IMG/VR virus record: IMGVR_UViG_3300017767_000016
Location: 1 to 52,610 of that record
Direction: 5' to 3' (one strand)
Length of the DNA: 52,610 nucleotides
Source of the DNA: a virus
A program made the translations under genes and the position numbers. Position 1 is the first letter of the stretch, and each line of letters starts with the position of its first letter. The notes under the pieces are model-generated. The model did not search any database and was not told the DNA's origin. It was given only the letters and a program-made list of their open reading frames with translations. Of this stretch, positions 44,364 to 52,610 are shown piece after piece.

Positions 44364-44804
44364 TTAACGTTCTGGATCTTTGATCATATCATCAATAGCC
44401 TTGTTGTAGACTTTATCTGTATATGTTTTATTTTTGAAAAATATGCTACGCTCAGACGTTGGAAGGTCTTCTTCGCCTAGCATTATTCTATATATTCTAC
44501 TTACTAAGTGTTTGCATTTAAATGAGGTTTGAAATATAGAATATTTAATTGAAGTACGGTTACGATGACGCCAAACCTCAATCCAGCCATCGCGGCGAAG
44601 GCGCTCCCACCTATCTTTATCCCAAGAATATGTGTATTCACCTTCTATAAAATCATTACGTGTAAAACGCTTTTTGCAATCTAAATATATTAAAAGTTCT
44701 AAATCAGCATCTTTTAAGTTATGAGTTTTACAGGCCCATTTGCGAATGAGCCTATAATACTTCATTAAATTTAGTTCTCTAAAGTCGTCCGCGCTTATTC
44801 TCAT
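44364..44804 (-). CDS. winged-helix-like DNA-binding protein, 146 aa
   Basis: The product resembles MarR-like winged helices. A helix start (YYRLIRKWACKTHNLKDADL), ELLIYLDCKKRFTRNDFIEG and a strand hairpin (DGWIEVWRHRNRTSIKYSIF) are visible. The basic WRHRNR loop could be a wing. It overlaps groES by four bases and lies directly downstream of the chaperonin genes, so it may control late or chaperone expression. The regulatory target is unknown. Confidence 0.6.
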   Translation of the reverse strand: MRISADDFRELNLMKYYRLIRKWACKTHNLKDADLELLIYLDCKKRFTRNDFIEGEYTYSWDKDRWERLRRDGWIEVWRHRNRTSIKYSIFQTSFKCKHLVSRIYRIMLGEEDLPTSERSIFFKNKTYTDKVYNKAIDDMIKDPER

Positions 44805-45058
44805 TCAACCATAACTATATCGCCGAGCTTTAGCACATGATACAGCTTATTCTTCCATTCTATACCGTGCCCATTATGCTTGTCGTAATAAACAATATCG
44901 TCTTTTTTAAGGGATTCAACTAAATTACCTGCAGATATAACCTTACCCTTCAAGTACCTAACGTCGCTGTTTTGCGATTCCGTAAGCTCAAGCCCACCTA
45001 CTGTCTTCGGTGCTTCCTTTATTTTTTCAATAACTACGAAATAATTAATTGCTTTCAT
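44801..45058 (-). CDS. groES: co-chaperonin GroES
   Basis: The 85-residue protein is slightly shorter than E. coli GroES (97). It keeps the N-terminal strand (NYFVVIEKI), the mobile loop ending in GGLEL (GroES: GGIVL) that binds GroEL, and the core KGKVISAG with KKDDIVYYDKHNGHGIEW. The roof loop appears short. It overlaps the groEL stop by 14 bases, inverting the bacterial groES-groEL order. It should cap the phage and possibly the host GroEL. Confidence 0.85.
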   Translation of the reverse strand: MKAINYFVVIEKIKEAPKTVGGLELTESQNSDVRYLKGKVISAGNLVESLKKDDIVYYDKHNGHGIEWKNKLYHVLKLGDIVMVE

Positions 45059-46616
45059 CTAATCGTATATTATTGATTATACAGTCAGCAGATATAATTG
45101 TATTAACAACTGATACCGCATTTTTAAGAGCAGTTTTTGTAACAAACGCCGGATCAATAATTCCAGCTCTAATCATATTAGTCGGCTTGCCTGTTACAAC
45201 ATCACGTCCCCAGCCTTTGCGTTCCATGCTTAAATTATCGCTAAGTCCTGCATTATTAAGAATAGTTCTGTATGGCGATAGTATAGCGCCTAATAGGACC
45301 TCTTCTCCTTTACTTTTTGGATTTATTTTTTGAGCTGCGTTCATAAGTGCGACACCACCACCTGGCACTATACCCTCTTTAAGCGCGGCTTTTACGGCAA
45401 ATAAAGCATCTTCAACCCTATCTCTTTTTTCTTTAAGCTCAATTTTAGAATCAGCCCCAACTTTTATAACGCCGACAGCACCGTTTAGCATTGCTAGTCT
45501 TTGCTGTAATCGTTTCTTAAAATATGGATTAGTTTCGTTTTTAATTTTTTGTTCAACTTGCAAAACTCTTTCTTTTAAATCTTCACCTAGCTCTAGAGTT
45601 TGCAAAACTGTTGTTTTTTCATCAGTTATAGCTTTTGTAACTTCGCCTAATACTGATGGCTCTATAAGATCTAAATCATCACCTAGTTCTTCATTTATAA
45701 CAGTTGCACCTGTTAAAAACGCTAAATCTTCGATTGTGTCTTGTTTTGACGGCCCAAAGCCAGGAGGGTCAATAACATTAACTTTTATATTACCTTTTAC
45801 TTTATTAGCTAAAAGAGCTGCCATTGGCTGCTGCTCAATTGAAGAAACAATTAATAAGGACCTATTCTGTTTTATAACATGCTCTAGCACCCCCTGTATT
45901 TTTCTAATATTAGGTATAGGAGAAGATACAATAAGAACATACGGGTTATCTAAAACAGCTCTGTTTTTGTCTTTATCTGTAATAAGATGCGGAGATTTTA
46001 ATCCTGACTCTAACTGTACGCCTTCTACGAATTCAACATAAGTTTCGCCGGTATCGGATTCCTCCATTAATACAATTCCGTCTTTGCCGACTTTTTCAAA
46101 TGCATCACCTATTTTTTCACCAAGTTCTGTATCATTGTTACAACTAATGGTTGCTATTTGTTTTAACATAGAGTCTTTTACAGGTACAGCTATTTTATCA
46201 ATATATTTAGCTACATTTGTCGCAGCTTTTTCCACGCCTGCTTTTAAAGAGCGAACATCTGTTTCGCCTTTATCTAATTCTTTACTGGCATTACTGAGTA
46301 GCCAGTGAGCGAGTACGGTAGCCGTTGTGGTACCGTCACCCGCTTCTCTGACCGTGTTTTTAGCTGCCTCTTTTATAAGTGTCGCTCCGATGTTTTCAAC
46401 TGGGTCTCTTAAGACTACGGATTCCGCAACCGTTACACCATCTTTTGTTATGACCGGTTTTCCTAACGCATCTTCATATATAACGCACTTACCTGAGGCA
46501 CCTAAAGTAGAGCTCACAGCTTTTGCAAGCTTCTCTACACCTGCCATTACTTTATCTTTACCTTCACTCCCGAATGATAAAGATTTTACTATCTCGCTTG
46601 GGTTATTATATTCCAT
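45045..46616 (-). CDS. groEL: chaperonin GroEL
   Basis: The 523-residue protein is a full group I chaperonin: equatorial, intermediate and apical domains in the usual order. ATP-site residues are present: Asp59 (TKDGVT), GDGTTTA at 93-99 with Asp94, and Asp403 (VEDAL), followed by PGGGVAL. The C-terminus stops at IRLDESN and lacks the GGM repeats that line the cavity in E. coli (548 residues). The phage ring may thus have a different chamber and client range. Phage chaperonins are known from some giant phages and from virioplankton. Likely clients are the long fibres and capsid, an inference. Confidence 0.95.
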   Translation of the reverse strand: MEYNNPSEIVKSLSFGSEGKDKVMAGVEKLAKAVSSTLGASGKCVIYEDALGKPVITKDGVTVAESVVLRDPVENIGATLIKEAAKNTVREAGDGTTTATVLAHWLLSNASKELDKGETDVRSLKAGVEKAATNVAKYIDKIAVPVKDSMLKQIATISCNNDTELGEKIGDAFEKVGKDGIVLMEESDTGETYVEFVEGVQLESGLKSPHLITDKDKNRAVLDNPYVLIVSSPIPNIRKIQGVLEHVIKQNRSLLIVSSIEQQPMAALLANKVKGNIKVNVIDPPGFGPSKQDTIEDLAFLTGATVINEELGDDLDLIEPSVLGEVTKAITDEKTTVLQTLELGEDLKERVLQVEQKIKNETNPYFKKRLQQRLAMLNGAVGVIKVGADSKIELKEKRDRVEDALFAVKAALKEGIVPGGGVALMNAAQKINPKSKGEEVLLGAILSPYRTILNNAGLSDNLSMERKGWGRDVVTGKPTNMIRAGIIDPAFVTKTALKNAVSVVNTIISADCIINNIRLDESN

Positions 46617-51195: not shown

Positions 51196-51340
51196 ACTAA
51201 AGCTAATTCTTTTTAACCAGCCCCCGTGCCGTTTTACGGTTACTGCCTGGGGTTCTCTGGATCCGAACAGCCGGGTCAACAAGAGTCGGACTCGGAACTC
51301 GACCGGATAATTCAGCTTTTTGTACAGCTGCAGCGCAGCG

Positions 51341-51361
51341 TGCATAGCAACGCGTATAGCA
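51341..51361 (+). repeat. TATAGCA-type direct repeat, copy 1
   Basis: Two heptamers, CATAGCA and TATAGCA, are separated by ACGCG. The element lies 14 bases before the matching TTTACAG block that leads into the first promoter module. It is the same 21-base element as at 51571 and 52158 with one changed base. Confidence 0.8.
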
Positions 51362-51369
51362 TTTACAGT

Positions 51370-51401
51370 CTAGTCACGATCCCGTACCGATAATATATTT
51401 G
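51370..51401 (+). promoter_or_regulatory. promoter-like module, copy 1
   Basis: CTAGTCACGA, nine bases, then GATAATATATTTG. The last eight bases, TATATTTG, fit the Bacteroidetes -7 consensus TAnnTTTG exactly. A start would fall close to 51408, a dozen bases before ATG 51420. Confidence 0.72.
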
Positions 51402-51419
51402 AATATTAAATTACCAGTT

Positions 51420-51548
51420 ATGAAACGTAAATTCAATCACAAACAAATAATCGTCGGAGTAATCGTAACCACGTACCTGACTATGTTAATCGGTGGTATC
51501 ATCACCGTATTGTCCAACCTTGATTCCGCATCGTACGGTATCTACTAA
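51420..51548 (+). CDS. early small membrane protein, 42 aa
   Basis: ATG 51420 to TAA 51546-51548. A basic start (MKRKFNHKQ) is followed by one hydrophobic span (IIVGVIVTTYLTMLIGGIIT) and a short tail. It lies directly behind promoter module 1. A single-span micro-protein expressed early may act on the host membrane or block superinfection, but this is inference from position. Confidence 0.6.
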   Translation: MKRKFNHKQIIVGVIVTTYLTMLIGGIITVLSNLDSASYGIY

Positions 51549-51570
51549 ACCTAAGGGCACCGCCCTGCGG

Positions 51571-51591
51571 TGTATAGCACCGCGTATAGCA
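51571..51591 (+). repeat. TATAGCA-type direct repeat, copy 2
   Basis: Two TATAGCA heptamers separated by CCGCG. A 6-bp hairpin (CACCGC-CCT-GCGGTG, 51559-51573) overlaps its left edge. The following ATTTTTACAG also matches copy 1. Confidence 0.8.
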
Positions 51592-51601
51592 TTTTTACAG
51601 A

Positions 51602-51633
51602 CTAACCACGATACTACTTCGATAATATATATG
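51602..51633 (+). promoter_or_regulatory. promoter-like module, copy 2
   Basis: CTAACCACGA, nine bases, then GATAATATATATG, 37 bases before ATG 51671. The leader after it is almost pure A/T. Confidence 0.7.
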
Positions 51634-51670
51634 AAACGAATTTAAAAGTATAACTATTAAAATTAAAATT

Positions 51671-51811
51671 ATGAGTATAAATGACAAATTAAAACAACTG
51701 TACAATCGCTACGACTTCTTAATTGATAACGATAGATGGGTACAAGCTAAGACAATTCAAAATGAAATAAGAGAATTAGAATTGTTACGTGAAGAAAGTT
51801 ACACAAACTAA
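51671..51811 (+). CDS. early small helical protein, 46 aa
   Basis: ATG 51671 to TAA 51809-51811. Charged helical protein (MSINDKLKQLYNRYDFLI ... NEIRELELLREE) with an A/T-rich leader directly behind promoter module 2. It could be a coiled-coil host-takeover factor. No family is recognised. Confidence 0.62.
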   Translation: MSINDKLKQLYNRYDFLIDNDRWVQAKTIQNEIRELELLREESYTN

Positions 51812-51839
51812 ACACGAAGTAAAGTAGATAATATAAATG
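51808..51839 (+). promoter_or_regulatory. promoter-like module, copy 3
   Basis: CTAAACACGA, nine bases, then GATAATATAAATG. It overlaps the stop codon of the 46-aa gene and precedes ATG 51863 by 23 bases. Confidence 0.7.
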
Positions 51840-51862
51840 TAAACAAATTAAAATAAATAATT

Positions 51863-52114
51863 ATGAGTAAATTAAATAACACATTAGTAAGTAAAAGATT
51901 TATCATTCGAAAGTCTTTAATCGGTAAAAACATCAATGTCTCATTCACAGACTACGATGGTAAAGTACACAAGTATTCACATGACAAAGTATATGAGTTA
52001 TGTAAAGAAAGATTCGACAACATGAAATGTTTCCAAAAATACAAGTACTACTCTCAAACATTCGCACTGCCGAAGTTTGTACGCGAGTTAGGTGATGAGG
52101 TTCTAGTCAAATAG
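51863..52114 (+). CDS. early small protein, 83 aa
   Basis: The 83 residues include a beta start (NTLVSKRFIIRKSLIGKNIN), VSFTDYDGKVHKYSHDKVYE and a basic helical part (KERFDNMKCFQKYKYYSQ). An A/T-rich leader follows promoter module 3. The function is not recognised. The codon pattern and leader match the other early genes, so it is probably real and expressed early. Confidence 0.7.
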   Translation: MSKLNNTLVSKRFIIRKSLIGKNINVSFTDYDGKVHKYSHDKVYELCKERFDNMKCFQKYKYYSQTFALPKFVRELGDEVLVK

Positions 52115-52115
52115 A

Positions 52116-52192
52116 ACTTCACCCCTAGCGGGGGCTACCGCCCTCGTGTACAGCATATGTATAGCAACGCGTATAGCACAGTGCGGTGAAGT
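52116..52192 (+). repeat. inverted repeat flanking TATAGCA copy 3
   Basis: ACTTCACC at 52116-52123 and its exact complement GGTGAAGT at 52185-52192 enclose a G/C-rich hairpin (CCCC-TAGC-GGGG) and repeat copy 3. The left arm lies just after the 83-aa stop codon, so a large stem could form at the mRNA end. Confidence 0.6.
52158..52178 (+). repeat. TATAGCA-type direct repeat, copy 3
   Basis: Two TATAGCA heptamers separated by ACGCG. A third related heptamer (TACAGCA, 52149-52155) lies 11 bases before the first, so heptamers recur about once per helical turn. Confidence 0.8.
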
Positions 52193-52398
52193 AATAAAAA
52201 GTAGCACCTTCCCAAAAAAAAAGTAAAGAACAGATCAGTGATGAAGAGATTAGTAACGAAAAGTGCGACACTAGCCTGTTATTAATAATACTTAACTAGC
52301 TAATGTCACATTTCTTGGTAACTCATGCACAGAGAGGTGATGTTATACCTACAACACTTTTTTATACTACAAACACTTTACCTACTTTTATTTACAAA
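52193..52398 (+). other. intergenic region before the last early gene
   Basis: No convincing gene is seen between the inverted repeat and the fourth promoter module. Frames of 14 codons (starting ATG 52231) and 37 codons (52303-52416) exist; the second runs into the promoter module and is doubtful. A run of nine A lies near 52216. Confidence 0.4.
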
Positions 52399-52430
52399 TT
52401 GAACACGAATCGGTGACGATAATATATATG
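52399..52430 (+). promoter_or_regulatory. promoter-like module, copy 4
   Basis: TTGAACACGA, nine bases, then GATAATATATATG, 20 bases before ATG 52451. The TTG fits the Bacteroidetes -33 element. Confidence 0.72.
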
Positions 52431-52450: not shown

Positions 52451-52610
52451 ATGAATAAATATGATTTTCATTGGGATAGTGATACTATCAATTACTATGC
52501 TACCGGCTTTCTAAATTGCGAGATTAGTAATGGCTGGGCAGGTACTGCACTTGTAATCTACAAATACGTAGCAGACGAGTGTGACTATGACTACGAGAGT
52601 GATTTTCGAA
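52451..52610 (+). CDS. early protein, 5' part (runs off the window)
   Basis: ATG 52451 opens a frame to the right edge, at least 53 residues: MNKYDFHWDSDTINYYATGF, then a Gly/Trp turn and an acidic, Tyr/Asp-rich stretch (DECDYDYESDF). The acidic character resembles phage DNA mimics or antirestriction proteins, but the end is missing. It lies directly behind promoter module 4. Confidence 0.6.
   Translation, partial: MNKYDFHWDSDTINYYATGFLNCEISNGWAGTALVIYKYVADECDYDYESDFR

Follow-up and report, generated by a model that had tools for sequence, protein, structure and literature searches.

A promoter-type module ahead of early phage genes recurs across a phage family and is probably read by a phage-encoded sigma70-family factor

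Introduction

Near one end of the window, which here denotes all 52,610 bases of one IMG/VR virus record from an uncultured Bacteroidetes phage, a short sequence module is repeated ahead of a series of small genes, which raises the question of what the module does and which RNA polymerase reads it. An initial annotation of this DNA had taken the module for an early promoter, with its right half as the -7 box of the Bacteroidetes host, a leading YTR as the -33 box and a CACGA block as an addition. The primary sigma factor of Bacteroidetes is unusual (accessible part of PMC9723704), and the leaders described in the accessible part of PMC6847099 for this phylum have no Shine-Dalgarno sequence. 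Our search found little literature on how Bacteroidetes phages take over transcription, and no description of this motif or its sigma factor was found among the titles and abstract openings searched, which covered few subscription journals.

Results

The module in the window

The exact pattern CACGA-N9-GATAATATA was found four times in the window, always on the + strand (Table 1). The four copies with fixed spacing reported by the initial annotation were thus exact, and the starts it gave (51370, 51602, 51808 and 52399) lie five bases ahead of each CACGA. With up to two mismatches allowed, the window contained the same four copies only, and the reversed control pattern gave one match. With up to three, the total was 11 matches against a shuffle mean of 7.0, the seven non-exact matches having three mismatches apiece and being at about chance level. 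All four right halves end in WWTG (TATATTTG in copy 1), at a distance of 18 to 37 nt from the following ATG, and ACA is present at -10 to -8 relative to CACGA in every copy.

The module is located at the point where two gene blocks diverge. The block on the - strand comprises structural genes and GroEL, and that on the + strand comprises short early genes, with ribonucleotide reductase at the opposite end of the record. The phage GroEL gene (45045-46616, - strand) is present in 10 of the 10 genomes compared below and is adjoined by a gene for an 85-aa GroES-like protein, named by eye (44801-45058, - strand), which is present in nine of the ten. A 25-nt direct repeat of the GTGTATAGCAACGCGTATAGCA type was also observed at 51340-51364, 51570-51594 and 52157-52181; it adjoins copies 1 and 2 on their upstream side, and the third unit stands alone. 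GTATAGCA shows enrichment close to the early promoters in several genomes of the ten, and in two it does not occur on that strand.

Table 1. Coordinates of the four module copies and the reading frames behind them in the window
Feature	Position	Strand	Remark
Copy 1, upstream (-35 type) block TTACAGTCTAGT	51363-51374	+	consensus TTACAnnCTnAA from 137 sites
Copy 1, CACGA element	51375-51379	+	predicted -26 to -22
Copy 1, GATAAT	51389-51394	+	predicted -10 hexamer, -12 to -7
Copy 1, transcription start (G)	51401	+	predicted, motif position 26
Short ORF behind copy 1, 42 aa	51420-51548	+	Pfam: no match
Copy 2, upstream block TTACAGACTAAC	51595-51606	+	
Copy 2, CACGA element	51607-51611	+	
Copy 2, GATAAT	51621-51626	+	
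Copy 2, transcription start (G)	51633	+	predicted
Short ORF behind copy 2, 46 aa	51671-51811	+	Pfam: no match
Copy 3, upstream block ACACAAACTAAA	51801-51812	+	
Copy 3, CACGA element	51813-51817	+	
Copy 3, GATAAT	51827-51832	+	
Copy 3, transcription start (G)	51839	+	predicted
ORF behind copy 3, 83 aa	51863-52114	+	family in 9 of 10 compared genomes; Pfam: no match
Copy 4, upstream block TTACAAATTGAA	52392-52403	+	
Copy 4, CACGA element	52404-52408	+	
Copy 4, GATAAT	52418-52423	+	
Copy 4, transcription start (G)	52430	+	predicted
ORF behind copy 4, open at record end	52451-52610	+	

Recurrence and anatomy of the motif

Scanning of viral contigs with the core pattern returned at least 119 stretches, which contained 156 unique sites. 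The consensus of 137 non-redundant sites extended upstream, where a block TTACAnnCTnAA precedes CACGA, and the ACA of this block was conserved at 93% (A), 94% (C) and 96% (A). The search pattern did not include this block. The element, TTACA-nn-CTnAA, had been missed by the initial annotation, whose observation was right and is larger than it described.

The window was then compared with 9 of 23 related virus records; 11 gene clusters, defined by gene clustering, were common to all ten genomes, which form one phage family. An extended pattern consisting of ACA, YACGA and the right box, with no more than three mismatches in total, gave 114 sites in the ten genomes, on a single strand within each; when every one of the ten sequences was shuffled five times, no site was found. 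At 109 of the 114 sites, a frame that begins with ATG and has 25 codons or more followed within 120 nt, at a median distance of 20 nt. The core pattern with up to two mismatches gave 186 matches in the 23 related records, on one strand per record, compared to two for the reversed control; the motif is therefore not randomly scattered in related genomes. Spacing was similarly rigid: among YACGA and right-box pairs lying 0-20 bases apart in the ten genomes, 97 of 105 were separated by exactly nine bases, and viral scans with a longer pattern returned at least 120 stretches with N9, six with N8 and one with N10. In front of phage genes, these sites share a block near -35 and another near -10, both conserved and separated by a constant distance, and recurrence, spacing, strand and gene context together support the view of the module as a promoter-type element of early genes.

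The CACGA block is indeed present and lies outside the known Bacteroidetes consensus, as had been stated, but its proper form is YACGA, with lineage-specific exceptions. Loci L206, L221, L235 and L241 have no YACGA and keep ACA and GATAAT, and L193 and L231 mostly have TACGT in its place, with ACA and GATAAT again kept. Loss of YACGA in some lineages suggests that the -35 and -10 blocks are the core of the motif and that YACGA is an added element. Some sites in one genome (G004) read TTGACA-N17-TATAAA across the motif stretch. In addition, one contig of 129,537 bases carries two early promoter clusters (12.9-19.1 kb and 75.2-83.0 kb) and two sigma genes, and it perhaps represents two phages joined in assembly.

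A scan of 84,980 bacterial and archaeal genomes showed 22 motif stretches on 20 contigs. In 14 of these, tblastn (E ≤ 1e-8) matched an ORF from the ten phage genomes, suggesting that phage DNA had been binned with bacterial sequence; judged by their titles, seven of the remaining eight are in bacteria outside Bacteroidetes and one is in a Flavobacteriales assembly. A sigma gene was not encoded in any of the 22 stretches, each of at most 8 kb. A host chromosomal promoter was rejected as an explanation on the basis of these counts, and by its distribution the motif is a feature of phages and not of host promoters. Among cultured phages, phi38:1, elemoF 6-3D and Gundel_1 (whole) and phi19:3 (first 40 kb of 76 kb) contained no copy of either core form, and a looser look at two of the four found none. 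The sigma gene discussed below is absent from the four records examined too, so that no case within the family separates the sigma factor from common descent.

Predicted position of the transcription start

Motif position 0 was defined as the first base of YACGA, and start codons were mapped at 699 non-redundant sites (892 before near-identical ones were merged; loci in bacterial genomes left out). An ORF of at least 35 aa started within positions 20-109 at 615 of the 699 sites. ORF starts peaked at positions 44-48, and a sharp separate spike was found at position 26 (68 of 615 sites), with 2, 1, 12 and 6 sites at positions 25, 27, 28 and 29, respectively. The genes with ATG at 26 belong to many families and include the phage sigma gene. 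Position 26 was a purine in 401 of the 406 sites of loci that had been fetched via the sigma protein, without the motif; the share of 694 of 699 in the full set is partly built in, as some loci had been fetched with a pattern that fixes G there. The simplest reading of the spike and the purine is that these are leaderless mRNAs starting with the A of the start codon, which would place +1 at motif position 26. Leaderless reading does not account for a lesser peak of start codons at 37 (24 sites), and the ATG at 24 (29 sites), which is part of the motif itself, falls outside it. A start at motif position 28 was considered and dropped given the spike at 26.

With +1 at 26, TTACAnnCTnAA would span -38 to -27, YACGA -26 to -22 and GATAAT -12 to -7, so that GATAAT would occupy the usual place of a sigma70-type -10 hexamer, with TTACAAACTAA near -35. 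The same start would put TATAWWTG at -7 to +1, and it would thus not be the host box TAnnTTTG, which lies at -12 to -5 in Flavobacterium psychrophilum according to the accessible part of PMC9723704. This goes against the proposal that the right half is the host -7 box. TATAWWTG is present in only 130 of 372 sites that keep GATAAT, and the YTR found no support as a -33 box.

A sigma70-family protein downstream of the motif

A protein of the sigma70 family (251-255 aa) is encoded in all nine compared genomes other than the window. In one of them (G002), Pfam matched regions 2 and 4 with scores just above the cut-offs (PF04542, 25.6 bits, cut-off 24; PF04545, 24.5 bits, cut-off 24.1). The best PDB sequence matches of the phage sigma were SigA/RpoD, and its model (pLDDT 78.6, pTM 0.47) gave sigma subunits in the 50 fold matches listed, at TM-scores of 0.3-0.4. 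A tblastn search of 50,697 phage records with the sigma of another genome (G003) returned nothing at E 0.01. The window has no sigma gene because the record is incomplete, with about 12.4 kb missing as judged from contig G012. This contig has three stretches in common with the window, at 99.1-99.8% identity, and bridges the end of the window (52610) to its start (1) with 12.4 kb of extra sequence, which contains four more motif-type sites and the sigma gene. On the evidence of this contig, through which alone the sigma of the window phage is shown, the genome is about 65 kb.

Search with the sigma alignment found 322 viral contigs, from which 80 loci were kept, 62 of them with at least 4 kb upstream (18 under 4 kb were dropped). 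The motif was present upstream of sigma in 59 of these 62 loci, with three or more sites in 47, and across all 80 loci 396 sites were on the sigma strand vs four on the opposite one. Two of the three exceptions, L185 and L206, have a variant motif without YACGA. At L168 (contig G063), sigma and its neighbour described below are present and the early small-gene block and motif copies are missing; the gene after sigma is cut short in this contig, which could reflect a deletion or an assembly fault. Conversely, sigma was found in 30 of 48 motif contigs, and the 18 that gave none comprised 12 under 30 kb and six of 41-53 kb. In some genomes the sigma gene stands directly behind its own motif copy; if sigma production depends on that copy, the first sigma must come from elsewhere.

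A 204-aa protein with a helix-turn-helix (HTH) resemblance is encoded upstream of the sigma gene in 78 of the 80 loci, within 300 bases in 71, and overlaps the sigma start in 50 of the 78. Its model was of high confidence (pLDDT 93.3), and the best Foldseek match had an E value of 0.9, with nothing at E ≤ 0.001. The C-terminal part matched DNA-binding HTH domains weakly (VIA-align Z up to 6.2, in the common range). This protein could read part of the motif and is a candidate partner of sigma.

Genome-specific bases in the motif

Base variation was analysed in 406 sites from 55 loci, the 25 of 80 loci with fewer than three sites being left out. The results showed that motif bases agree within a genome and differ between genomes. 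At -13 (motif position 13), mutual information with the genome was 1.33 of 1.91 bits, compared to 0.34 when shuffled (z 30.7), and genome-specificity was also clear at position -4 (z 19.6) and position 3 (z 15.3), whereas spacer positions 7 and 8 were nearly without it (z 1.7 and 1.0). All four bases are found at -13, usually a single one in any given phage genome, and 13 changes are needed on the tree of 50 loci. As the spacer is not levelled, copying of whole promoters is the poorer account, and the -13 pattern is better accounted for as the mark of selection by a reader evolving with the phage.

Residue covariation with the motif was tested for the sigma protein, the HTH protein and eight other proteins, and nothing rose above background; column-wise association, branch-wise co-change and distance regression singled out neither the sigma nor the HTH protein. 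Sigma region 2.4-3.0 does not predict the base at -13, as L193/L231 and L196 share this region and use A and G, respectively, and motif distance tracks sigma distance no better than it tracks that of the helicase or other neighbours. A separate observation concerns gene c24, located downstream of sigma (L167-L246), in which two unrelated thymidylate-synthase-like types with 24% identity alternate. Type 1 occurred with a purine at -13 in 23 of 24 loci and type 2 with a pyrimidine in 14 of 16, an association (37 of 40 loci) that represents only two to four independent changes.

Host-type boxes and late genes

In the early upstream regions of the ten genomes, TAnnTTTG occurred three times vs 8.1 in shuffles, and the paired host box (TTG about 17-23 bases upstream of TAnnTTTG) was found in none of 163 early regions (0.7 in shuffles). 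The late upstream regions contained TAnnTTTG 12 times vs 9.0 when shuffled and the paired box four times vs 1.1. Among the 372 sites, whose definition requires GATAAT and leaves no base of it free beyond the first, TATAWWTG was kept in 58% of the 74 located 8-10 kb upstream of sigma vs 8% of the 59 at 2-4 kb. A search of 133 late upstream regions in the ten genomes by k-mers and spaced dyads revealed no late promoter motif comparable to the early one, the best late 8-mer occurring in 18 of 133 regions vs 57 of 163 early regions for GATAATAT.

Discussion

Taken together, the motif copies are probably promoters of a phage-encoded sigma70-family factor, with YACGA as a spacer element and a genome-specific base at -13. 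Each copy would serve as the promoter of a phage early/middle gene block and would be built, in order, of TTACAnnCTnAA (about -38 to -27), YACGA, a nine-base spacer ending at -13 and GATAAT, then a discriminator rich in A/T and, at +1, a purine. Behind +1, roughly one site in ten would have the start codon directly, the others an A-rich leader some 20 nt long. The reader is most likely host core RNA polymerase together with the phage sigma (about 253 aa, regions 2 and 4), encoded some kilobases downstream within the same block. Where the sigma gene lies behind its own motif copy, the factor would feed back on its own expression.

The same arrangement is relevant to a different reading, in which host sigmaA reads the promoters through TATAWWTG as the -7 box, YACGA and TTACA form the site of a phage or host activator, and the phage sigma serves late genes. 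A source other than the phage sigma is needed for the first sigma, TATAWWTG is commoner near the start of the block, and copy 1 has an exact TAnnTTTG; however, the exact box is found in just one of the four copies, many GATAAT sites have no TATAWWTG, and TATAWWTG falls at a position, given the predicted start, that differs from that of the host box in the accessible part of PMC9723704. The early regions are moreover poor in TAnnTTTG and free of the paired box, and no comparable motif was found for the late genes, which the phage sigma would then have to serve. We consider this reading unlikely. A T4-like appropriation of sigma, in which an activator, with the 204-aa HTH protein as candidate, binds TTACA...YACGA at about -38 to -22 while polymerase with the phage or host sigma reads GATAAT, appears distinctly unlikely. 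The block overlaps the -35 region, as does the MotA box, centred at -30 in the accessible part of PMC2988021, so that T4 middle promoters (MotA/AsiA) likewise combine a phage element over the -35 region with a -10 element, and the HTH protein is a near-constant neighbour with a weak HTH-domain match. Yet the distance to the -10 element is 14 bp from the end of TTACAnnCTnAA and 9 bp from that of YACGA, compared to 12 ± 1 bp for the MotA box (same part of PMC2988021), a phage sigma gene is present here, the HTH protein has no fold match at E ≤ 0.001, and its residues associate with the motif no more than those of other proteins.

That the motif serves as promoter for a phage RNA polymerase, whether single-subunit or virion-borne, is highly improbable. 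The motif is long, rigid and phage-specific, as such a promoter would be, and a 999-aa protein of the window contains the string DIDGD, but D-x-D-G-D strings also occur in a few unrelated large proteins in three of the ten genomes, the geometry is that of a sigma70 promoter, and the Rpb1-type domain PF00623 was found in none of 14 records, some of them fragments, compared to 14 of 14 for the control. The T7-type polymerase domain PF00940 was also found in none of the 14, and its control likewise matched no genome. A giant 2266-aa protein was considered as a virion RNA polymerase and rejected, as it had no PHROG match and no PDB sequence match; it gave one weak tblastn match in the 50,697 phage records and by eye resembles an internal virion protein.

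Transcription by the phage sigma, the preferred reading, has parallels among known systems. T4 gp55 and SPO1 gp28 and gp33/34 are sigma factors encoded by phages, with a dedicated class of promoters. As in those phages, a phage sigma would redirect the host core polymerase to a phage-only consensus; unlike them, the class would here drive the early/middle block rather than late genes, with YACGA as an addition within the spacer and a base at -13 that varies between phages. In Escherichia coli, -13C sets sigma specificity at sigmaS promoters. The -13 base would similarly act here as a specificity-setting base, although any base may occupy it and its identity does not follow the sigma residues expected to determine it. 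By analogy, the system would work like a phage sigma regulon, and its layout recalls T4 middle promoters without their defining spacing. Promoters of the Bacteroidetes primary sigma, as described in the accessible part of PMC9723704, share an A/T-rich downstream half with the motif but have TAnnTTTG at -12 to -5 rather than GATAAT at -12 to -7, and their TTG box is not required here. The leaders are also similar to those of the phylum in having no Shine-Dalgarno sequence (accessible part of PMC6847099).

How the first transcripts would be made is a related matter. Carriage of sigma in the virion is one possible source of the first sigma. If host sigmaA read the first promoters as well, the TATAWWTG gradient would be explained, as it would by a simple difference in discriminator strength. 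A more far-reaching proposal, which we put forward as doubtful, is that of an orthogonal sigma-promoter system in which -13 has switched repeatedly and in concert at all promoters of a phage and in which two overlapping boxes, GATAAT read by the phage sigma and TATAWWTG read by host sigmaA, lie near the start of the block. If true, the host sigmaA start would lie about five bases further on, and one sequence would serve host-driven and later phage-driven transcripts.

For this large phage family as a whole, these results provide a testable hypothesis of one sigma and one promoter class, with start sites predicted to the base. The hundreds of naturally occurring variants, among which the base at -13 switches, form a comparison set for sigma-promoter co-evolution and, if the reading is confirmed, may give sigma-promoter pairs without cross-talk to flavobacterial promoters, for use as genetic parts in strains kept in the laboratory.
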